Of a stretch of 64,000 nt of DNA, positions 26,919 to 55,399 are shown piece by piece; the first letter of the stretch is position 1, and every line of letters starts with the position of its first letter. A program made the translations under genes and the position numbers. The stretch is from NCBI GenBank assembly GCA_947473475.1, contig CANJBZ010000006.1:57692-121691 (forward strand), written 5' to 3'. The notes under the pieces are model-generated. The model saw only the letters and a list, made by a program, of their open reading frames with translations, had not been told where the DNA came from and searched no databases. The DNA is from Alphaproteobacteria bacterium. Its GTDB lineage: Bacteria > Pseudomonadota > Alphaproteobacteria > Micropepsales > Micropepsaceae.

Positions 26919-27833
26919 TCAATAGAATTCGTGCAGCGCCGCGATCACCGAAGCCCGGGCGGTCCCCCAGGCGATCACAGCAGCTGCGGTGGGAATGACG
27001 GCAAGCCAGGGAAGTTCCGCCAAGTCCAAGCCGAGCGGCGGCAAAAATGAAATCGTCGCGACGCCCAATTGGTCCAGGCTGCCGGCGGCGAAAAAGATCA
27101 CCCCCCCGGCAGTGGCTCCGCACGCCGCCGCGATCAGGGCGGCGATGAAATAGTGCCATTCGAAAGCGCGGGCGATGAAGCGGTCCTGGGCGCCCATGAG
27201 ATGCAGCAATTGCACAATCTCCCGATGCGCCGCGAGGCCGGCGCGGGTGGCGAACGCAACGGTGGCTGCCGTCGCGACGGCAATCAGCGCCAGCACGGCA
27301 AAGGCGCTCAGCACCACACTGTTGGCCGTGGTTTTCAGCCGGCCGATCCAGCGGCCATGATCGTCCAGAACCGCATGGGGCGCGGCACGCTTCAGCCTTT
27401 GTTGCAATCCGGCGATATCGGGGGTGGCGCCCGGCGAAAGCTGCACATCGATGAGCAGGGGGAACGGCAGGGCTGCCACCACGGCATCGCGCCCGAGCCA
27501 CGGTTCGACCAGCGCAACATTGTCGCTGTCGGACAAGGCGTTGGCGTAAAGCACGCCGGGCGTTGCGCGCAGAATCGCGATTGCCTGGTTCACTTCCTGG
27601 ATCGGGACCGTCTCACCCTCGGGCAGGACCTGCACTGTCAAGCGGCCGGCAAGCCCGGCCTGCCAGGTTTCCGAAAAGCGATTGGCAATGAGCACGCCGC
27701 CCAGTGCGAGTGAGGCCAGAAAGGCCATCACCGCGATGACCAGATCCAGAGACGCGGCGCCTTCCTCGCGCGGCAGAATGCGCCCCTTTGGCCGTTCCTT
27801 GGCAACGATGCGAGCGGGCGCAGCGGTATTCAT
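26919..27833 (-). CDS. ftsX: cell division protein FtsX-like permease
   Basis: 304 aa, 4 TM; start overlaps ftsE stop. Confidence 0.85.
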   Translation of the reverse strand: MNTAAPARIVAKERPKGRILPREEGAASLDLVIAVMAFLASLALGGVLIANRFSETWQAGLAGRLTVQVLPEGETVPIQEVNQAIAILRATPGVLYANALSDSDNVALVEPWLGRDAVVAALPFPLLIDVQLSPGATPDIAGLQQRLKRAAPHAVLDDHGRWIGRLKTTANSVVLSAFAVLALIAVATAATVAFATRAGLAAHREIVQLLHLMGAQDRFIARAFEWHYFIAALIAAACGATAGGVIFFAAGSLDQLGVATISFLPPLGLDLAELPWLAVIPTAAAVIAWGTARASVIAALHEFY

Positions 27834-28495
27834 CAGGATCGCATCTCGATCAATCGGCCGTCGATCAGACGCATTTCCCGGGCGGGCGTCGCCTCGATCA
27901 AGGCGCGGTCGTGGGTAGCGATCATCACGGTGGTGCCAAACCGGTTGAGTTCGACGAGCAGCCGAATCAGGCGTTCGCCCATGTCCGGATCGACGTTGCC
28001 CGTGGGCTCGTCCGCAAGCAACAGGTCGGGTTTGGCCACCACAGCCCTGGCAATGGCGACCCGCTGCTGCTCGCCCCCCGAAAGGGTTGGCGGTTTGGCA
28101 TGCAGCCGCGCGCCCAGCCCGACCCAGGACAGAAGCTCCTCGACGTCGCGCCGGTATTCGGCGGGATGGCTCCCGGCCAAACGCAGGGGCAGCGCCACAT
28201 TGTCGAACGCCGACAGATGATCCAGCAGACGGAATTCCTGGAAAACAACGCCGATACGGCGGCGCAGCGGCGGCAATTCAGCCCGTTTGACACGGGCAAG
28301 ATCGCGGTCGAACAGCGTGATCAAGCCGCGCGAGGGCCGCTGGGCCAGAAACACCAGTTTGAGCAAGCTGCTCTTTCCGGCGCCGGAGGGGCCGGTCAGA
28401 AAGGTGAAGGAGCCCGGTTCGAGCGTAAAACTGACGTCGCGCAGGACCTCTGGTCCGGCGGCGTAGCGCATCCCGACATTCTCAAATCGAACCAT
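27833..28495 (-). CDS. ftsE: cell division ATP-binding protein FtsE
   Basis: GPSGAGKSSLLKL Walker A, LSGGEQQRVAIARAV signature, LLADEPTGNVD. Confidence 0.93.
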   Translation of the reverse strand: MVRFENVGMRYAAGPEVLRDVSFTLEPGSFTFLTGPSGAGKSSLLKLVFLAQRPSRGLITLFDRDLARVKRAELPPLRRRIGVVFQEFRLLDHLSAFDNVALPLRLAGSHPAEYRRDVEELLSWVGLGARLHAKPPTLSGGEQQRVAIARAVVAKPDLLLADEPTGNVDPDMGERLIRLLVELNRFGTTVMIATHDRALIEATPAREMRLIDGRLIEMRS

Positions 28496-37421: not shown

Positions 37422-38357
37422 TCACTTCTGGTCCAACGCTTTTTCAAGTTCGGGCAACGCCTCGAACAAATCGGCGACCAACCCGTAATCGGCGACACCG
37501 AAAATCGGCGCGCTTTCGTCCTTGTTGATGGCGACGATGACTTTGGAATCTTTCATCCCGGCCAGATGCTGGATCGCGCCGGAAATCCCAACGGCGATGT
37601 AAAGCTCGGGCGCGACGATCTTGCCGGTCTGTCCCACCTGACGGTCGTTGGGCACGAAGCCCGCATCGACCGCGGCACGCGAAGCGCCCACGGCCGCGCC
37701 GAGCTTGTCGGCGATGCGCTCGATCAGCACGAAATTGTCTTTGGATTGCAGTCCGCGTCCGCCTGAAACGATGATCTTGGCGCCCTGAAGTTCGGGGCGT
37801 TCGGAGCGGGAGAGATTCTCGCTGACAAATTGCGAGATGCCCGGATCGGCAGCGGCCGCGACCGGCTCAATGGCGGCATTCCCATCTTTCGCAACGGCCG
37901 TGAAGGCGGCAACCCGGACCGTGATGACTTTCTTGAAGCCCTTGGCTTCAACCGTCTGGATGGCGTTGCCGGCATAGATCGGACGGCGGAAAATGTCTGG
38001 CGATTCCACCGAAAGGATTTCGGAAATCTGTGGCACGTCGAGTTTGGCGGCGACGCGGGGCATGACGCCTTTGCCGTTAGCGGTCGCTGCCGCGAGAAGG
38101 GCGTCATAACCGGCGGCCAAGGACAGCACCAATTCCGCGACCGGTTCGGCGAGGAAGTGCGCGTAACGCGCGTCGTCGGCGACCAGAACCTTTTCCACGC
38201 CGCCGAGCTTTGCGGCTTGTTCGGCTACGGCGCCGCACGCTTGTCCGGCGACGAGGATATGGACCGGCTGCGAAATCTGCGCCGCGGCGGCAACGGTTTT
38301 GGCGGTGCCTTCGTCGAGCGCCAGGCCGTTGTGTTCTGCGATAACGAGGGAGGCCAT
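37422..38357 (-). CDS. etfA: electron transfer flavoprotein alpha subunit
   Basis: [45 protein letters not shown]. Confidence 0.95.
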
Positions 38358-39103
38358 CAGATTACCCCCCGCTCGCGCAGCTTGCTCACCAATTCGGCCG
38401 CGGAGGCGACTTTGCCGCCGGCTTTGCGTTTTTCCGGCTCGCGCACTTCCAGAACCTTCAGGCGCGGCGTGGGATCGACGCCGTAATCGGCGACGGATTT
38501 CTCGGCGATCGGTTTTTTACGGGCCTTCATGATGTTGGGAAGGGAAGCATAGCGCGGCTCATTCAGCCGCAAATCCGTGGTGACGATCGCGGGGAGCGAC
38601 AGAGAAACCGACTGCAAACCGCCATCGACTTCACGGGTTACCGCGATGCGCCCGCCTTCAATGTCGATTTTGGCGGCGAACGTTCCCTGTGGCCAGCCCA
38701 GCAGGGCGGCCAGCATTTGCCCGGTTTGGTTGCAATCGTCGTCGATGGCCTGTTTGCCCAGGATAACCAGCTCCGGCTTCTCTTCGGCGCAGACACCCCT
38801 CAGGATTTTCGCCACCGTCAGCGGCTCCAACTCGCCGTCATGCTTCACCAGAATGGCCCGGTCCGCGCCCATCGCCAACGCGGTGCGCAGCGTTTCGCTC
38901 GCGCCCTGCGGGCCCACGGAGACGGCCACCACTTCCGTAGCAATGCCCTTTTCCTTGAGGCGCACGGCTTCTTCGACCGCGATCTCACAGAACGGGTTGA
39001 TGGACATTTTGACATTCGCCAGATCAACGCCCGTGCGATCCGCTTTGACCCGCACGGCGACGTTGAAATCGATCACCCGTTTGACGGGGACGAGAACTTT
39101 CAT
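38357..39103 (-). CDS. etfB: electron transfer flavoprotein beta subunit
   Basis: [47 protein letters not shown]; start reassigned to 39103. Confidence 0.95.
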
Positions 39104-39451
39104 CGTCTGAAGATGCCTTATGTTGGCAGGGCTTACGGCCCCCCGGCCGTGCGCGCCCGTCAAATTTGTGCGGCGCAATAACTAAGGGCGGGCGTGGGTC
39201 CTGTCAACGCAAGCAGCCGACTTGGCGCGGGCTTTCCCGAGCTGTTGTTGGCTGGTTTGGCGAATGCCAACCCGGCAGCGGCGTTCGGCTGGGAACCCGG
39301 AAGTCCCTGCACGTTAAGGAAACTTTCCCGCCAAATCGGCCCGGCAGCTTGCGCATAAGTGGCGGTTGAGGAGGCTGGCCCAGCCATTCCAACGGCGGTT
39401 TGCCGGCCGGATTGCGCCTTATAGTCGCTGGCCCGGTGGGGGGCGGGCGGC

Positions 39452-40348
39452 CTAAAAGTCCGGCCGCTCAGTGCTTGGGATAGCTGTCATGTGGCCCGAG
39501 TAAAACTCGAACGCGTTTTCGGCACAGACTTGTTCAACCCACTCGCCGCGAATCCGGCGGTAGGTCGCGGCCGCTGTCAGAGGGGCGGTCAGGACTTTGG
39601 GGTCTTCGATGGTGAAGGTTACCTGCAGGCCTTTGCCCATGTAGGTGGGATCGACGGTGACGTTGCCGCCTTGGCCGGCAACGCCATCCTGCTTCTGATG
39701 GCGCTCGGCGGCTTCCTTCGCCGTCTTGTAATCGACCAGCCGGTAGCGTTCCACTAGGTGGAGCGCATCGCTCCGGGGTGTTCCGTATCTGTCCATCACC
39801 GGCACGCGTTTTGTCTGCACCCCTACCGTATCGATGACCAGCGTGTCGCCTTCGTACTGGCCGATGGAATCGCCCCAGGCGCTCGGCATCACTTTGGGGG
39901 GATGCGACCCATTCAGCCGCACGCGCCGCACCTGATCGTCCTGATTGTAGAGCATGGTCAGGTGGTCCTTGGTTTGGAAAATCTCCACACCAAGCTGCAT
40001 GGCCAGATGGAAAGGCGGCGCGTAGGTCGCGCATTGATTGGACGGATCGGGAAAGTTTTCTCCCTTGGCGGAGATTTCGCCCGCGCGTTTAACCGCCGCT
40101 GCGGCTTCGAGTTTCAGGATCGGGTTGTTGTAATCGCCGACAAGGGCATTGGGATCGCCGATGCCGTTGGGTAAGCGGCGCGTATTGGTGATGGGCTGCA
40201 GGCCGCCCGGCACCGGCTCGAAGTTGAAGGCGTTGCGCCCCCAGCGGCCGGAAAAATCCGGAATGTTCTCAGCCGACACCGCAGGCCACGCGAATGCCGT
40301 GGCCGAAAGCGCCGCCCCCAAAATCAATTGCCGATATCCCAATGTCAT
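39452..40348 (-). CDS. secreted protein of unknown function
   Basis: 298 aa, signal peptide, PDFSGRWGR motif. Confidence 0.6.
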   Translation of the reverse strand: MTLGYRQLILGAALSATAFAWPAVSAENIPDFSGRWGRNAFNFEPVPGGLQPITNTRRLPNGIGDPNALVGDYNNPILKLEAAAAVKRAGEISAKGENFPDPSNQCATYAPPFHLAMQLGVEIFQTKDHLTMLYNQDDQVRRVRLNGSHPPKVMPSAWGDSIGQYEGDTLVIDTVGVQTKRVPVMDRYGTPRSDALHLVERYRLVDYKTAKEAAERHQKQDGVAGQGGNVTVDPTYMGKGLQVTFTIEDPKVLTAPLTAAATYRRIRGEWVEQVCAENAFEFYSGHMTAIPSTERPDF

Positions 40349-40689
40349 TGCGCGCGTCCTTTGCGGGCGGCGGAATCACGTATCGCAGATTCCGCCTCGA
40401 GCGTGATCGTATAAGCGACCTCATCGTCCACGGCGATCTGCTCTTGTTTACGCACCGCGGCTTTGAGCGGCAGAAGATACAAGCCGCTTTTATCGGGGAA
40501 GATTGAGGTCTTCCATTCGGTCTTCCCCAATTTCACGGTGACGGGAATCGAGCCCCAGCCGCGCCGCAAGCTGCCCATTTGCGTTGCTTTAAGCGCATGC
40601 GAGTTCTCTTCATCGACACTGATAAAATGCCACCCAGCCTTGCCGGGATACAGCCACACTTTCGACTTGAGCTTAAACGTCGTCTTCAT
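40345..40689 (-). CDS. DUF1905 domain-containing protein
   Basis: SKVWLYPGKAGWHFISVDEE...GWGSIPVTVKLGKTEWKTSIFPDKSGLYLLPLKAAVRK. Confidence 0.8.
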   Translation of the reverse strand: MKTTFKLKSKVWLYPGKAGWHFISVDEENSHALKATQMGSLRRGWGSIPVTVKLGKTEWKTSIFPDKSGLYLLPLKAAVRKQEQIAVDDEVAYTITLEAESAIRDSAARKGRAQ

Positions 40690-40716
40690 AGGCAGCCGAA
40701 CGCGCCATTCGCTCCG

Positions 40717-41487
40717 TCAGTGGCTAACCGGATCGAGTCCCGCTTCGACCATGATGTGGCGGGCGTCGGCGTTTTGCATCGCTTTGAGCAGGGCGCGGGC
40801 GATGTCGGGGTTGGCGCTGTTGGCGCCGACCGCGCCGTCATAGCTCGACGGATTTTGCACGGCTGCCGGAAGCGGACCCACGACTTTGGCGCCCTTGATG
40901 GGTTTGATTTCGCTGATGAAGGAGATCGCCATGTCGGCTTCGCCTGCCGCCATCTTCTGCACCGCTTCGGCGCCCGTCTTGCCGTATACGGACTTTTTCA
41001 TGACCTCGTCAGTGATGCCCATTTTCTGCAACAGGCTGGTGATCGCCTGACCGGCCTGACCGCCCACCTTCGGATCGATCCAGGCGACCGACTTGGCCGC
41101 GACCAGCCGCGCCTTCAGCGCATCGACCGTCGAGATATCGATCATCGGCGCGCCATCGCGGACCGCCACGCCGATATTGGCGCGGGCAAGCTCCACACGC
41201 GTACCGGGGACAACCAGCTTTTCCTTCTCCAGCGCGGTCATGCCGACGGACGTAACCTCAACCACATCCGCTTTCTCGCCCGCGCGCACTTTGTCCTGAA
41301 TGACGCCGGTGGTGCCGACCACGAAATCCAGCGTGTGACCGTTCTTCTTGGCGAAATCCTTCGACACTTCTTCCAACGCGTGCGCCATCGCGCCGCTGAC
41401 CATGACTTTAATCTGCGCGGCGTTGGCGGTGCTTGCGAGCACAAGCGGAAGGACGGCCGCAAAGGCGGCAATACGATATTTCAACAT
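40717..41487 (-). CDS. ModA-like extracellular substrate-binding protein (orphan)
   Basis: Signal peptide, IKVMVSGAMAHALEEVSKDFAKKNGHTLDFVVGTTG; no adjacent permease or ATPase. Confidence 0.8.
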   Translation of the reverse strand: MLKYRIAAFAAVLPLVLASTANAAQIKVMVSGAMAHALEEVSKDFAKKNGHTLDFVVGTTGVIQDKVRAGEKADVVEVTSVGMTALEKEKLVVPGTRVELARANIGVAVRDGAPMIDISTVDALKARLVAAKSVAWIDPKVGGQAGQAITSLLQKMGITDEVMKKSVYGKTGAEAVQKMAAGEADMAISFISEIKPIKGAKVVGPLPAAVQNPSSYDGAVGANSANPDIARALLKAMQNADARHIMVEAGLDPVSH

Positions 41488-41506
41488 GCTTCTCCCCAAA
41501 TGAAAC

Positions 41507-43228
41507 TTAGCGGACCTGGATTTTCACCAGCTTGGATGGCGGGCGATAGGCCGGCACCCACACGGTCGGACGCGGCGCGCCCACTTCCACCTTCAGATCG
41601 CGAACTTCGTAATTCGACGGTGTCATATATTCGATCGATTTGCCCGTCTTCATGTCCATGCGATAGAGGCGGCTGCTGCTGAAATCATGCGTCCAGACGA
41701 TCTGGTTCTTGTCGTCGGCGCTGGCGGAATACGGCTCCGCATACGGCGCGGTGTATGGCTTGGCGCCTTCGATCAGCGGGTATTCCTTCAGCTCTTTCTT
41801 GTCGGGGTCGAACATCAGGATTTGCCCGGAATAGAATTCCGCCGCCCACAGACGATTCTGCCCGTCGATCTGGCCGCGGCGCGGACCCGACATCGGCGTC
41901 GGCACCTTGTATTCGGCGTAGGACACGTCTTTCGGATCGAAGATGCCGATCTTGCCTTCGCGCCAGATGTACAAATCGGTACGGCCCTTCGCGTCCGTGT
42001 CGATGTCGTAAATACCCATGTTCTTGGGGATGGGGTACAGCGTACGCTTCAGCGTCTCGCTGCTGGTATCGATCTTGGTGAGCTGGCCGTTGTCGGAGAG
42101 GTGCCAGACATTGTTGTCCGGGTCCAAACCGAACATGGCATCACCATTGGCCCACGGTGTGAATTTGCCGGTCCTGGGCTCGTATTTCACGGTCCCATGA
42201 TCCATGCCGACGATGACATTGTTCTTTTTGTCGAATTGCAACTCGTGCGCCCCGCCGCCGGGCTGACCGGGACGGCCATCGCCCGCGCCCATGGCTTCAC
42301 GGCCGGCGCCCGCCGGAACCGGGAAGGGCATCTCCTTGGCTTCGCCTGTTTTCAGGTCGATGCGGCCGAGCATGTAAGAGAAGTGGTCGGTGTAGTAGGC
42401 GAACTCCTTGTCCATGATGACGTCGTGCGGCCACACATATTGGCGGTCGCCGCGCAGCATAAAGCTGTCACGCTCGCCGCCGCGCGGAAGGTCGTATTCG
42501 GTGACGACGAGGTTTGTGGACGCTTCGTCGACGGGGCGCGGACGCTGTTTGAAGACAATCTTGTCGGATGAGCCGGGGCCGCGAATTTGCGTCAGATAAT
42601 CCGCAAGCGGCTCGATCATGTTTTTCTGGCTGAAGGCATAGGTGCCCGGCGTGTCGGCTTCCGCCGCGCGGCCCGCCATCATCTTGACGACCTTGACCCA
42701 GCCGTCATGCGTGCGGGGAACTTGCAACGCCCATTGCAGCGTGTGGCAATTGCTGCATTGGGAGAACAGCACCTTCTGCTTGTCGGTGCCGGGCAGCGCG
42801 GCAATGATTTCCGACGCGGTGGCATCGTCATAGGCCAGCGGTTTGGCCTTCAGCGTGAAATCGATTTTCGCGGTCTTGCCTGCCGCAATCGCGACGCTGT
42901 CTTTGTTGACGTGCGCGAAGTCCGGAAGATCGACCTTCACGGTGTAGGAGCCGGGGCGCACGTCCGACCAGCTCGGGAAGGAATAAGCGCCGGTCTTGTC
43001 CGAATAGACCGCCACCGTCATCGTGCTGTTCTTCATCTGCGCTTTGACGGGGATGCCCGCGAGTGGCTGGCCGTCCGGCGAGGTCACGCGCCCGGCAAGC
43101 GGTGACACAGGCTCGGCGGATTGGGATGCACTCGGCGCCAACACGCCGTAACTGGCTGCCAGAACGGCGGCAGACAACGCAACACCTGCAAGATGACGTG
43201 TCTTAAGCGTGGCGACGTGCATGGCCAT
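41507..43228 (-). CDS. Three-module secreted protein: carboxypeptidase-regulatory-like domain + c-type cytochrome + Vgb-like beta-propeller
   Basis: AGRVTSPDGQPLAGIPVKAQ...; CSNCH heme motif; repeated WFxP-type propeller blades. Confidence 0.8.
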   Translation of the reverse strand: MAMHVATLKTRHLAGVALSAAVLAASYGVLAPSASQSAEPVSPLAGRVTSPDGQPLAGIPVKAQMKNSTMTVAVYSDKTGAYSFPSWSDVRPGSYTVKVDLPDFAHVNKDSVAIAAGKTAKIDFTLKAKPLAYDDATASEIIAALPGTDKQKVLFSQCSNCHTLQWALQVPRTHDGWVKVVKMMAGRAAEADTPGTYAFSQKNMIEPLADYLTQIRGPGSSDKIVFKQRPRPVDEASTNLVVTEYDLPRGGERDSFMLRGDRQYVWPHDVIMDKEFAYYTDHFSYMLGRIDLKTGEAKEMPFPVPAGAGREAMGAGDGRPGQPGGGAHELQFDKKNNVIVGMDHGTVKYEPRTGKFTPWANGDAMFGLDPDNNVWHLSDNGQLTKIDTSSETLKRTLYPIPKNMGIYDIDTDAKGRTDLYIWREGKIGIFDPKDVSYAEYKVPTPMSGPRRGQIDGQNRLWAAEFYSGQILMFDPDKKELKEYPLIEGAKPYTAPYAEPYSASADDKNQIVWTHDFSSSRLYRMDMKTGKSIEYMTPSNYEVRDLKVEVGAPRPTVWVPAYRPPSKLVKIQVR

Positions 43229-45168: not shown

Positions 45169-47568
45169 TTACTCGTGGCCTTCAGGCAGCAGTATCTCGC
45201 GTTTGCCCTGGTGGTTCGGCTTGCTGATCATGCCGTCTTCTTCCATCCGCTCGATCAGACGCGCGGCGCGGTTGTAACCGATCTGTAGGCGACGCTGGAT
45301 GTAGGAGGTGGAGACTTTGCGCTCGCGCGCCACGATGGCGACCGCTTTGTCGAAAAGATCGTCGCCGCCTTCTCCGCCAGCCGCCAAACCGTAGGGATCG
45401 TCCGCGTCGCCATCGGGCTCTTCGGTGACCGCTTCGAGATATTCGGGGTGACCTTGCGTCTTCAAAAAACGGACGACGTCCTCCACCTCGGTATCGGTGA
45501 CAAAGGGGCCGTGGACGCGGCGGATGCGTCCGCCGGCCATCATATAGAGCATGTCGCCCTGGCCCAGGAGCTGCTCGGCCCCCTGTTCGCCGAGAATGGT
45601 GCGCGAGTCGATTTTCGAGGTGACCTGGAAGCTGATGCGGGTCGGGAAGTTCGCCTTGATCGTGCCGGTGATGACGTCGACGGATGGACGCTGCGTTGCC
45701 GCAATCAGGTGAATACCGGCAGCGCGCGCCATTTGCGCGAGACGCTGCACCGCGCCTTCGATTTCCTTGCCTGAGATCATCATCAGGTCGGCCATTTCGT
45801 CGACCACGACGACGATGAACGGCATGGGTTCGAGTTCGAGCACTTCATCTTCGTAGATCGGCTGGCCGGTCTCGCGATTGAAGCCGGTCTGAACGGTACG
45901 CTTGAGGACCTCGCCCTTTTCCTTCGCGTTGCGGACGCGCTCGTTGAAGGCTTCGACGCCGCGCACGCCCACCTTGGCCATTTTGCTGTAGCGGTTTTCC
46001 ATCTCCTTCACCGCCCATTTCAGGGCGACGACGGCCTTCTTGGGATCGATGACGACGGGCGACAGCAGATGCGGAATTCCATCGTACACGGATAATTCCA
46101 GCATCTTCGGGTCGATCATGATGATGCGGCAATGCTCCGGCGGCATGCGGTACAGCAGCGACAGGATCATCGTGTTCAGCGCGACGGATTTGCCTGAGCC
46201 GGTTGTGCCCGCGATCAGGAGATGGGGCATTTTGGCCAGATCGGCCATGACGGCCTCGCCGCCGATGGTCTTGCCCAGAGCCAGCGTCAAAGGCGCGCGC
46301 GACTTTTCATATTCGGGCGCGGCGAACAGCTCCCGCAAATAAACGGTTTCGCGCTTCAGGTTCGGCAGCTCGATGCCGATGACGTTGCGGCCCGGAATGA
46401 CGGCCACGCGCGCGGCAACGGCGCTCATGGAGCGGGCGATATCGTCGGACAGCGAAATAACGCGCGAGGACTTTACGCCCGCGGCAGGCTCCAATTCGTA
46501 CAGCGTGACGACGGGGCCGGGCCGCACTGCGGTGATACGCCCGCGCACGCCGAAATCGCCGAGCACCGCTTCGAGCAGACGCGCATTTTCTTCCAGCGCA
46601 TCGTCCGAATAGGCGGGCGCCGCGGAGTCCGTGGGCGGTTCGGTCAGAAGCCCCAGAGGCGGGAGTTGGTATTCGCCTTCCGCAAGATTGAGCGCAGGCT
46701 GGAGGCCGGACTTGCCTTTGGACTTGCCGCGGCGTGTCTCCTCGCGTTGTACGCGCTTGCCGGATGGCTCAATGGGTTCCCCGGAAATCAGGACGTCGAT
46801 CTCCGCGTCATCGAAGTCGTCTTCGAACGCGGGCTCGTCATCATCGTCGCGGTCGAGCGCGTCTTCGCGTTCCGCGCGATCACGCCGGCGGAAGGCCAGC
46901 CGTCCGAGCGACAGGGTCCCACTCCAGGCGGACACGCCCGTTGAGGCGATGGCATGCCAGAGGCTGGCCGTCTTGATGCCTGTCGCCAGGAACACCAGCA
47001 CCGCGCCCAGCATCGCGAACAGAATTGGAATGATCGTAAGAAGCCATGGCGCGGTGAATTCTGCCGCAACCTTGCCGGTAAAAAACATGGCCATGCGGCC
47101 GGGAATGCCGCCGCTGCCGGCTGGCAGCGCGGTCAACTCGGGTAGCGCGCCGAAGGATGCGGCGAGCAGGAATGCGCCCAAGAAAAGCGCCAGGATGCGC
47201 AGCGCCAGTTGGCTGACCCGACCGCCTCTCGCGATCTGCCAGCCCCACGCCGCAAGGGTGAGGCCAAACGCCAGGGCGGCGCCGCCGAAGAGCTGGAACA
47301 GGGAATCGGCCGTATAGGCGCCCGCGCCCCCAAGCCAGTTCGTGGGCTCGCGCCCCGTCGCGACATTGAGACTGGGATCGGCGGAGTCGTAGCTGAGCAA
47401 ACTGACGAAGAGGGTGAATGCGAGGACCAGAAGGGCAATGCCGAGCGTCCGCCAGAGCGTCTCGGCCAGCAAATCGACGAACCAGCCGCGAAAGGCGTTC
47501 AGCGCATCCGCGATCTGTCCCTTGCGGGAGCGCGGTTGATAGACCCCGGCACTGCGATTGGCGGCCAT
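45169..47568 (-). CDS. ftsK: DNA translocase FtsK
   Basis: 4 TM N-terminus, AGTTGSGKSVALNTMILSLLYR, C-terminal gamma winged helix STSYIQRRLQIGYNRAARLIERME; start reassigned. Confidence 0.95.
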   Translation of the reverse strand: MAANRSAGVYQPRSRKGQIADALNAFRGWFVDLLAETLWRTLGIALLVLAFTLFVSLLSYDSADPSLNVATGREPTNWLGGAGAYTADSLFQLFGGAALAFGLTLAAWGWQIARGGRVSQLALRILALFLGAFLLAASFGALPELTALPAGSGGIPGRMAMFFTGKVAAEFTAPWLLTIIPILFAMLGAVLVFLATGIKTASLWHAIASTGVSAWSGTLSLGRLAFRRRDRAEREDALDRDDDDEPAFEDDFDDAEIDVLISGEPIEPSGKRVQREETRRGKSKGKSGLQPALNLAEGEYQLPPLGLLTEPPTDSAAPAYSDDALEENARLLEAVLGDFGVRGRITAVRPGPVVTLYELEPAAGVKSSRVISLSDDIARSMSAVAARVAVIPGRNVIGIELPNLKRETVYLRELFAAPEYEKSRAPLTLALGKTIGGEAVMADLAKMPHLLIAGTTGSGKSVALNTMILSLLYRMPPEHCRIIMIDPKMLELSVYDGIPHLLSPVVIDPKKAVVALKWAVKEMENRYSKMAKVGVRGVEAFNERVRNAKEKGEVLKRTVQTGFNRETGQPIYEDEVLELEPMPFIVVVVDEMADLMMISGKEIEGAVQRLAQMARAAGIHLIAATQRPSVDVITGTIKANFPTRISFQVTSKIDSRTILGEQGAEQLLGQGDMLYMMAGGRIRRVHGPFVTDTEVEDVVRFLKTQGHPEYLEAVTEEPDGDADDPYGLAAGGEGGDDLFDKAVAIVARERKVSTSYIQRRLQIGYNRAARLIERMEEDGMISKPNHQGKREILLPEGHE

Positions 47569-47570
47569 TC

Positions 47571-48794
47571 TCAGTTCGCCTCCTGCAAGAAGTCCGCAAT
47601 GCGACCGAGTGCGGCTTCGATGGTGAGAGAATCGTGAACCAGCGCAACGCGAACGTAGCGGTGTCCGGGATTGCTCGTGGGATCGCCTGGAATTTGCTCG
47701 ACGCCCATATAGGCGCCGGGCATGACGCGAACCCCATATTTGCGCCACAGCGACTTGGCGAACGCCGCGCCGTCACCCACGTCGAGCCAGAGATAGAAAC
47801 TTCCCGGCGGAACGCGGAAGCCTGTGTGATTGCCGAGCAGCCGGCGCGCGATGGCAAAGCGCTCTTGATACAAAGCCCGGTTCTTTTCGACATGGGCTTC
47901 ATCGTTCCAGGCGGCGGCCGATGCCTCCAGCACGGGAATGGGCACCTGCGGCGCGGAGGTGTTGCGGAACCGCGTCATGGGCGCGATCAGACTGTCCGGG
48001 CCGAACACAAATCCCGACCGTAAGCCCGGTGCGCTCGACCGTTTGGACAGGGAATGGAACGCCAGCAGCCGTTCGAAGCCGCCGGTCATGGCATAGCGCA
48101 CTTCCAGCGCGCCGACGGGCGGGGCTCCGTCATAAATCTCGCAATAGCATTCGTCCGCCAGCACCACGAAATCGTAGCGGTCGGCCAGATCGAACAGACG
48201 CCGCCAGTCCGAAGCGGTGGCGCAGGCCCCTTCCGGATTGGAAGGCGAGCAGAAGAAGGCCGCGACGGTCCGTTCCAGAACGTCTTTGGGGACGCTCGCG
48301 AAATCGGGCAGGAAGCCGGTCTCCTCGCGAGACGGGACATAATACGCCTCCGCGCCTGCTGCCAGCACAGCAGCGGGATAGGTCACGTAAAACGGGTTGG
48401 GGATCAGGACGACGGGACGGCCGCCGTTTTTTGTCTCGGGCGTCAACGGGGGAATGGCGAAGAACAGCCCCTCGCGCGAGCCATTGAGTGGAATGATCTG
48501 CTTGTCCGCATCAATGGAACTGGCCGGAAGGTTGAACCTTCGGCACAGCCATCTGGCCGCGGCGGTACGAAAGGAAGGCGTGCCGGCAATCGGCGGATAG
48601 CGGCCGAAGTCGCGGGCGTGCTTGGCGATGGTTTCCGCGATCAGCGCGGGCGGTTCGTCCTGCGGCTCGCCCACGGTGAGCACAATCGGTCCGCTCTTGC
48701 CCGGCGGGAAGCTCTCAGGGAGAACCCCGTCAAGCAACTGAGCCAGGCGCTGGAACGAAGACGAAGGAGCATGCGCCATGCGACCGGAAAGCAA
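47571..48794 (-). CDS. PLP-dependent aminotransferase class I/II
   Basis: PGKSGPIVLTVGEPQDEPP, FCSPSNPEGACA, HSLSKRSSAPGLRSGF. Confidence 0.88.
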   Translation of the reverse strand: MLSGRMAHAPSSSFQRLAQLLDGVLPESFPPGKSGPIVLTVGEPQDEPPALIAETIAKHARDFGRYPPIAGTPSFRTAAARWLCRRFNLPASSIDADKQIIPLNGSREGLFFAIPPLTPETKNGGRPVVLIPNPFYVTYPAAVLAAGAEAYYVPSREETGFLPDFASVPKDVLERTVAAFFCSPSNPEGACATASDWRRLFDLADRYDFVVLADECYCEIYDGAPPVGALEVRYAMTGGFERLLAFHSLSKRSSAPGLRSGFVFGPDSLIAPMTRFRNTSAPQVPIPVLEASAAAWNDEAHVEKNRALYQERFAIARRLLGNHTGFRVPPGSFYLWLDVGDGAAFAKSLWRKYGVRVMPGAYMGVEQIPGDPTSNPGHRYVRVALVHDSLTIEAALGRIADFLQEAN

Positions 48795-53535: not shown

Positions 53536-53710
53536 GCTCTTGGAAATCCGTGCCGCACCTCGCGCAAATGTGTTACTAATTGTTCAGGTGCTGCGGCTTG
53601 CGTGGGCTTATCGCGGCCGCTTTCCAGTTTTTCGTCTGTGTCTGATTGGGGCTTGTTTGGGAACGTCATCTTGCGGGGCCAACCGCACGATGAGCAAAGG
53701 AGGAAAACAC

Positions 53711-55399
53711 ATGGCTTTACGGGACATCACCCGCACGCTCGCGTTAGGCGTTGCAGCGGGCGCCATTATGCTCTCAGCCGCACCGGCTCTTGCGCTCGAC
53801 AATGCAGGTTCGCTCGAAGGTGTGGTGAAGAATGCGGCCGGCCAGCCGGTGCCGGGCGCCTTTGTGCGTCTGAAGAACAGCGCCGCGCGTCCTGCGCTGA
53901 CGTTCATGGTGGTCAGCCAGGCTAATGGCGGCTTCTCCGCGAAAGACCTGCCGCCGGGCAGCTATACGGTGCAGGCAATAGGGACGGCGAACCAGAGCGC
54001 CATTTCGCCGGCCGTTGCGGTCGAGTCGAACAAGGCAGCCAAGCTGGATGTGTCTCTGACCAATCCGCGCGGTCCCATGCTGACGCCGGCCTGGCCGGGC
54101 CGCGTGCCCGAAGCCCTGGTCGACAAGACGTCCAAGGACGCCAAAGACCTTCCGGCCGGGCAGCACAAGCAGCTGGTCGCTGAAAAATGCACCGTCTGCC
54201 ACGACGTGCAGCGCATTCTCTCCAAGCGCTCGCCGGTCGACGATTGGACGTTCACGGTCCGCCGTATGCGGACGAATATGGCCGTTTCCTCGCTTCCCGA
54301 TATGTCCGACCAGGACGCGGGCAACATCGTCGGCTATCTGTCGGCCAACTTCAAACCGCTGCCGGGCGGCGATGATCCCAACGGCCGTCTGCCGAATTAC
54401 GCCATGACCGGGCAGAGCACGAAATACCGGGTGGTGACGCTGGACCTTCCCAAGCGCTTCTCCGAGCCGCATGACATCGCCTCCGATCCGAAGGGCATTG
54501 CCTGGGCGGCGGAACGCGCGGGCGCTTTGATCCGCTTCGATCCCAAGACCTATGACTTCACGGAAGTCCGAGTCCCGGCGGGACCGGCGCCGGCGAACCG
54601 TCAGCGTCTCGGCAATCCGCAGATCAACGCGCAGGGCATTCTGTGGACCGCGGATGGCCCGAACAATCGCTGGCTCAGCTACGACACCAACGCCTTCAAC
54701 AAGCAGAACCCCGGTGTCGCCTTCCACATCTATCCGTGGACGGCGAAGGGCCATGGCGGCGCGGGCGGCAACTCCTTCGCGCTGCATCCCGACGGCACAA
54801 TCTGGGGCACCGGCCAAGGCAAGGAAGTCCGCATGCTGAATCCCCAGACGGCGGAATTCAGCTTCTATGAAGCCCCAAGCTTCAAGCAGACCAAGGAAAA
54901 CCCGGGCGCTTACGGACTTGCGGTCGCCGGCGACGGCTCTGTGTGGTGGGCGGAAGACGAGGCCGACATGATGGCGCGTCTCGATCCCAAGACCGGCAAA
55001 GTGGAAGAATTCAAGCTTCCGCCAACCGGTGGCCATGCCCTCCCGCGCCGGATGAACACCGACTGGGACGGCAATCTGTGGGTCGGTATCTGGGAAGCCG
55101 GCAAACTGATGAAGATCGACTACAAGACCAAAGAGATGACCCTTTACACGCCGAAGACGCCGGCGTTGGGCATGTACTCGATCGTTGCCGACAAGAAGAA
55201 CAAGCTGATCTGGGCCAGCGCGCAACAGGTGGACAAGATTTTCCGGTTCAATCCTGCGACTCAGGAGTTCACCGAATTCCCGCTCCCCTATGCGCAACAG
55301 GATCCGCGCCGTATCGACATCGATCCGACCAATCCGAACCGCATCTTCTTCAGCGGCAATACGGCTGACCGCATCGGCTTTATCGAGCTGACGCCGTAA
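53711..55399 (+). CDS. Three-module secreted protein: carboxypeptidase-regulatory-like domain + c-type cytochrome + Vgb-like beta-propeller (paralog)
   Basis: SLEGVVKNAAGQPVPGAFVRLKN..., CTVCHDVQRIL heme motif, propeller repeats; same order as 41507-43228. Confidence 0.8.
   Translation: MALRDITRTLALGVAAGAIMLSAAPALALDNAGSLEGVVKNAAGQPVPGAFVRLKNSAARPALTFMVVSQANGGFSAKDLPPGSYTVQAIGTANQSAISPAVAVESNKAAKLDVSLTNPRGPMLTPAWPGRVPEALVDKTSKDAKDLPAGQHKQLVAEKCTVCHDVQRILSKRSPVDDWTFTVRRMRTNMAVSSLPDMSDQDAGNIVGYLSANFKPLPGGDDPNGRLPNYAMTGQSTKYRVVTLDLPKRFSEPHDIASDPKGIAWAAERAGALIRFDPKTYDFTEVRVPAGPAPANRQRLGNPQINAQGILWTADGPNNRWLSYDTNAFNKQNPGVAFHIYPWTAKGHGGAGGNSFALHPDGTIWGTGQGKEVRMLNPQTAEFSFYEAPSFKQTKENPGAYGLAVAGDGSVWWAEDEADMMARLDPKTGKVEEFKLPPTGGHALPRRMNTDWDGNLWVGIWEAGKLMKIDYKTKEMTLYTPKTPALGMYSIVADKKNKLIWASAQQVDKIFRFNPATQEFTEFPLPYAQQDPRRIDIDPTNPNRIFFSGNTADRIGFIELTP

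Follow-up and report, generated by a model that had tools for sequence, protein, structure and literature searches.

An orphan ModA-like binding protein beside an exported cytochrome/propeller protein: a gene junction known from a single alphaproteobacterial genome

The locus and its genes

The window, which is the whole stretch of 64,000 nucleotides that was analysed, carries on its minus strand a gene for an exported cytochrome/propeller protein, here called CYT, and directly behind it a gene for a ModA-like periplasmic binding protein. Read along the minus strand, the order is a gene at 45169-47748 that we take from its sequence to be a probable ftsK homologue, genes for two DUF6644 proteins and a PH-domain protein, CYT, the binding protein, a DUF1905 protein, a member of the family that we call H298, etfB, and etfA. 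The features from CYT onward are as follows.

41507 to 43228, minus strand: CYT, 573 amino acids, an exported protein with a CarboxypepD_reg domain, a single-CXXCH cytochrome part and a Vgb-like beta-propeller (domain matches; orthologues at loci L070-L075 and L213-L216)
41488 to 41506, minus strand: intergenic gap of 19 nt between CYT and the binding protein, holding the GGGGAG ribosome-binding site of the latter (sequence)
40717 to 41487, minus strand: ModA-like (SBP_bac_11) orphan periplasmic binding protein, 256 amino acids, with a Sec signal peptide (open reading frame; Pfam and NCBIfam matches)
40345 to 40689, minus strand: DUF1905 protein, 114 amino acids, in the inserted block (Pfam; absent from the syntenic locus L214)
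39452 to 40348, minus strand: H298 secreted protein, last gene of the inserted block (a family without a Pfam or NCBIfam model)
39106 to 41507, no strand assigned: inserted stretch with the H298, DUF1905, and binding-protein genes, corresponding to 238 bp in congener G002 (L214:1236-1473)
38357 to 39178, minus strand: etfB as called, conserved downstream flank, the aligned part ending at 39105
37422 to 38357, minus strand: etfA, conserved downstream flank (Pfam ETF domains)

The best start of the binding protein is the ATG at 41487, which lies a few nucleotides behind GGGGAG and opens a signal peptide, MLKYRIAAFAAVLPLVLASTANA, ahead of AQ. It is 19 nt from the CYT stop codon; a listed alternative TTG start at 41499 would leave 7 nt. 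From this short gap and the binding protein's own ribosome-binding site, we infer that the two genes are probably carried on one transcript. The original prediction had described a ModA-like protein about 20 nt directly downstream of a Vgb/cytochrome gene on the same strand, without an ABC permease or ATPase nearby, and both statements are borne out. The open reading frames agree, the contig of the window gave no BPD-type importer permease (the 13 hits of the ModB model all fall elsewhere in the genome), and a single ABC ATPase, at 27833-28495, was noted within the window, 13 kb from the pair; it looks like FtsE.

CYT has a signal peptide, an N-terminal CarboxypepD_reg domain (54 bits), one CXXCH motif, and a Vgb/SGL-like propeller that scores 23-24 bits, below the family cut-offs. 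Its closest solved structures are Vgb lyases, and its propeller part resembles the Virginiamycin B lyase family (PF24684; PDB 2Z2N), whose Pfam cut-off some CYT paralogues exceed. The window protein itself, however, reaches 23.3 bits against a gathering cut-off of 50 and additionally carries the haem motif and the CarboxypepD_reg domain, which sets it apart from that family. A second protein of the CYT architecture is encoded at 53540-55399 on the plus strand of the window, with a Vgb-like propeller above the Vgb_lyase cut-off; roughly 14 genes in the genome combine CarboxypepD_reg, one CXXCH, and a Vgb-like propeller.

Conservation of the junction

Relatives of CYT were sought in a contig collection, which yielded six orthologues (four from MAGs of Acidobacteria gp5, two from alphaproteobacterial MAGs; 51-74% identity), and by a profile search of relatives, which added four from congeners, all with high scores (789-934 bits). 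A binding-protein gene adjoins CYT at none of these 10 loci outside the present genome. Although some of these contigs are short, sequence runs past CYT on the relevant side in all 10 cases. Two of the ten loci share flanking genes with the window. Congener G002 (L214) keeps the order etfA-etfB-CYT-PH-ftsK, with etfA and etfB homologues that are 72 and 81% identical to the window genes, and 238 bp stand there for 2.40 kb of the window (39106-41507). In congener G005 (L213), CYT adjoins ftsK, and a different gene, in our reading polA, lies downstream in place of the block.

Since the junction is missing at all ten orthologues and L214 lacks the block altogether, the junction is known from this genome alone. 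The 0/10 count and the 238-bp interval rule out a conserved operon of CYT and the binding protein. Thus, the proposal that the binding protein is a dedicated partner of CYT is not supported, and the conserved neighbourhood that was to be looked for across alphaproteobacteria and Acidobacteria was not found at these ten loci, an outcome that had been named beforehand as refuting the proposal. The simplest reading of the junction is gain of a block in this lineage, in which the binding-protein, DUF1905, and H298 genes would have come to lie between the CYT gene and etfBA. No foreign composition was seen in the block, the GC content of which resembles that of its neighbours; only the DUF1905 gene is somewhat richer in AT. 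The binding-protein family is also present in each of the six other genomes that the CYT search found, with 3-17 matches per genome. Such co-presence fits a shared gene complement and does not imply a physical partnership.

Family and ligand site of the binding protein

The binding protein matched Pfam SBP_bac_11 with 136 bits and the NCBIfam ModA model TIGR01256 with 77.7 bits, above the cut-off of 62.5; all 18 aligned family members matched this model in a family-wide NCBIfam scan, and the family profile matched solved ModAs in the PDB at 1e-28. It is thus like ModA (PDB 1AMF, 3R26, 7T4Z) in fold family, length, export, and model score. It differs from ModA in lacking the molybdate contacts, in belonging to a separate clade, in having no adjoining ABC genes, and in occurring in many copies. 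In E. coli ModA, molybdate is contacted by Ser12, Ser39, Ala125, Val152, and Tyr170 (PMC8895017); at the corresponding sites, the window protein carries Ala, Thr, Ala, Gly, and Phe. The trio of Ser/Thr12, Ser/Thr39, and Tyr170 is kept in 0 of 63 non-canonical family members, and Ser, Ser, Val, and Tyr at sites 12, 39, 152, and 170 are present in 19 of 19 canonical ModAs. Behind the lost tyrosine, the non-canonical clade shows an S-E motif (43 and 48 of 63) in place of the canonical T-D. In a maximum-likelihood tree, the 63 non-canonical proteins stand apart from canonical ModA on a long branch with support of 100/100. Given the lost contact residues, the name "molybdate" is unsafe for this family. 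AlphaFold, run on the single sequence, gave a model of this protein that was too poor to use (pLDDT 35). In the literature, we did not find ModA-like orphans of this kind described, nor DUF6152 or DUF6644.

The score above the modA cut-off raises the question of whether this is an ordinary binding protein for molybdate or another oxyanion, working in trans with the ModBC system of contig C17. A true ModB is encoded on that contig, and only there, without an adjoining ModA gene, which agrees with such use; the window gene itself has neither ModB nor ModC beside it. However, the contact residues are lost, a fully canonical ModA with the motifs FAAAS, FSFAGS, VPAG, and GIVY is encoded at C15:49.8k, not on the contig of ModB, and a dozen paralogues face one permease. 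We therefore consider this reading improbable, and a true ModA function with ModBC is disfavoured by the lost contacts together with the canonical ModA elsewhere.

A second comparison is with XoxJ, MxaJ, and ExaJ of the quinoprotein dehydrogenases (PMC7391723), with which the window protein shares the arrangement of an orphan periplasmic binding protein beside a cytochrome gene. Unlike these proteins, it has no MoxJ-type match, no quinoprotein dehydrogenase is recognised beside the pair, and the pairing is unconserved; the window flanks consist of etfBA, PH-domain, and ftsK homologue genes. Pfam and NCBIfam scans of the binding protein returned SBP_bac_11/1/8 and modA only, and the family-wide NCBIfam scan returned only ModA, tungstate, and aminoethylphosphonate binding-protein models, with no MoxJ-type match in either. 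Membership of XoxJ, to which an analogy with XoxG/XoxJ had pointed, is ruled out by sequence family. What survives of that analogy is a loose idea, that of an orphan binding protein that may serve a periplasmic oxidase, and paralogues located beside exported propellers and haem proteins are in keeping with it.

Paralogues, their neighbours, and the H298 family

This genome has 13 matches to the binding protein, one of them the canonical ModA and 12, counting the window copy, non-canonical. Each of six congeners has 3-8, and most other genomes of the same sample have at most one weak ModA match. At E<=1e-30 the family profile matched 24 of 385 genomes of the class, a patchy distribution that is wider than the genus; six candidates per genome were scored in this class-wide search, so that copy numbers there are lower bounds. 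The neighbours of the paralogues are diverse, and a TonB receptor gene is also found among them.

L049 (72 bp), L051 (91 bp), L190 (38 bp): NHL propellers beside a paralogue
L113 (162 bp), L175 (169 bp; acidobacterial genome): CYT-type protein beside a paralogue
L122, L065: GSDH-family (glucose/sorbosone) dehydrogenase beside a paralogue
L050, L115: molybdenum hydroxylase beside a paralogue
L052: SoxC-type enzyme and cytochrome beside a paralogue
L108: GMC oxidoreductase near a paralogue
L053, L112: Rieske oxygenase near a paralogue
L059: acetamidase/formamidase beside a paralogue
L047, L061: HlyD/MacB export genes beside tandem paralogues

The tandem arrangement at L047 (G000:C4) and L061 (G001:C20), with two or three binding-protein copies and HlyD and MacB-like export genes, is common to congeners. 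The window itself carries, at 405-2226 on the plus strand, a SoxC-type molybdopterin oxidoreductase gene followed by a c-type cytochrome gene; a similar pair on contig C11 (L052:4260-6905) has a paralogue of the binding protein immediately behind it. Apparent CYT-type neighbours at L169 and L172 matched weakly, at 25-30 bits; we read them as TonB/Oar-type proteins sharing CarboxypepD_reg and did not count them.

Exported beta-propellers lie directly beside paralogues at eight of roughly 80 loci (the window, L049, L051, L190, L113, L175, L122, and L065). This raises the possibility that the family comprises MxaJ/XoxJ/ExaJ-like helpers or feeders of exported propeller and haem oxidoreductases, the partners of which would have been swapped by recombination. 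Of the 20 slots next to paralogues in this genome, propellers fill 3 against about 0.2 expected, a rough count based on 18 NHL and about 14 CYT-type genes, and the presence of the family in all six other genomes found by CYT would also agree with such a role. Against it, the window pair is absent at every other CYT orthologue, the majority of paralogues lack a propeller neighbour, and those that have one are scattered over the tree; moreover, only 2 slots are left when the pair in the window, from which the question arose, is set aside, and the background omits GSDH and PQQ propellers. We regard this role as unlikely, although propeller neighbours commoner than the rough chance estimate leave room for a real enzyme link.

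A weaker candidate role is that of a sensor-type binding protein, which would show its ligand to a histidine kinase or a membrane receptor. One paralogue (L049) lies near a CHASE4 histidine kinase (Pfam), and those at L053 and L112 lie near genes read as a response regulator and a kinase, but no kinase or receptor is found near the window copy and a two-component neighbourhood is true of few paralogues, which leaves this role very improbable. At L053 (G000:C48) and L112 (G002:C258), the paralogue stands between genes read as greA/carB and those read as the response regulator and sensor kinase.

A precedent for numerous orphans comes from the tripartite tricarboxylate transporters. One Rhodoplanes has 434 binding proteins of this type, mostly orphan, for which interchangeable use has been proposed (PMC5994714). 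The likeness to these Bug/TctC proteins lies in many orphans, some in tandem, within one soil alphaproteobacterial genome, far more than there are permeases; the difference is that the window family is ModA-type in sequence and numbers about a dozen, not hundreds. On the grounds of the 0/10 conserved pairs, the congener without the block, the paralogue expansion, the separate clade, the lost contacts, the diverse neighbours, and this precedent, we consider it likely that the binding protein is an interchangeable orphan of a ModA-derived family without a molybdate site, brought behind CYT by block gain, and not an obligate CYT subunit. Such a protein may bind, in the periplasm, a small anion or carboxylate that the many exported oxidative enzymes of these soil bacteria release or use, and it might pass this ligand to a shared carrier or concentrate it for the enzymes; its use would be exchangeable, as for the orphan Bug/TctC proteins. 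A point against this explanation is the ModB permease of contig C17, which has no ModA gene next to it and might in principle work with any of the paralogues.

H298, which closes the block, is a member of a secreted family marked by the motif PDFSGxW...GDTLVIDT... and two invariant cysteines. Its profile had 91 matches in this 3.87-Mb genome (contigs C7, C22, C24, and others) and 21-118 in congeners, and none in six other sampled genera of the same family. Outside that bacterial family, the four Acidobacteria MAGs had at least 83-146 and one Hyphomicrobiales MAG had 111; 150 candidates were scored, so that most of these outside counts are lower bounds. None of 22 H298 members matched Pfam or NCBIfam, a sequence search of the PDB gave no match, and a search of viral contigs found no relative. 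The structure predicted for H298, of low confidence (pLDDT 53), contains many beta strands. Foldseek matched it weakly (best E 0.009) and almost always to barrels that bind fatty acids or retinoids, which gives no more than a hint of a barrel-type fold.

H298 genes lie within 1.5 kb of binding-protein genes at 4 of 10 loci against 0.7 expected, a modest enrichment (p 0.004, this distance being one of four tried, with p 0.004-0.07), which, like the propeller count, fits a shared gene complement and does not show a physical partnership. At canonical ModA loci (L048, which is G000:C15:49.7k in this genome, L121, and L126), three congeners have an H298 gene no more than about 300 bp from the ModA gene. 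More than 12 copies, mostly head to tail, occupy C7:49.8-66.3 kb (L077, G000:C7:50000-69500); this run adjoins a TonB-dependent receptor gene, and a tannase/feruloyl esterase gene is near its other end. These neighbours suggest a role in the uptake or breakdown of plant polyphenols. In Acidobacteria and in this genus, H298-type domains are fused or adjacent to DUF6152 (PF19649; L071:4689-5750, L121:3707-4894, L081:3472-4613), a gene-fusion link that joins two families of unknown function.

It is conceivable, but in our view quite unlikely, that all this belongs to a modular periplasmic toolkit of large soil bacteria from two phyla (Alphaproteobacteria and Acidobacteria gp5), in which a ModA derivative would have taken on a new role as an exchangeable partner that delivers ligands to, or helps to assemble, many exported oxidoreductases of the beta-propeller, haem, and molybdenum kinds, accompanied by a secreted family present in about 90-150 copies in each genome.

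Our analysis removes a tempting but wrong pairing of CYT with the binding protein and indicates that automatic "molybdate transporter" labels should not be trusted for a binding-protein family whose binding site is gone. The H298 family deserves attention in its own right, given that few bacterial gene families reach such copy numbers and that no Pfam or NCBIfam model covers it. The ligands of the orphan ModA-like proteins and the role of the neighbouring H298 family thereby become testable questions.
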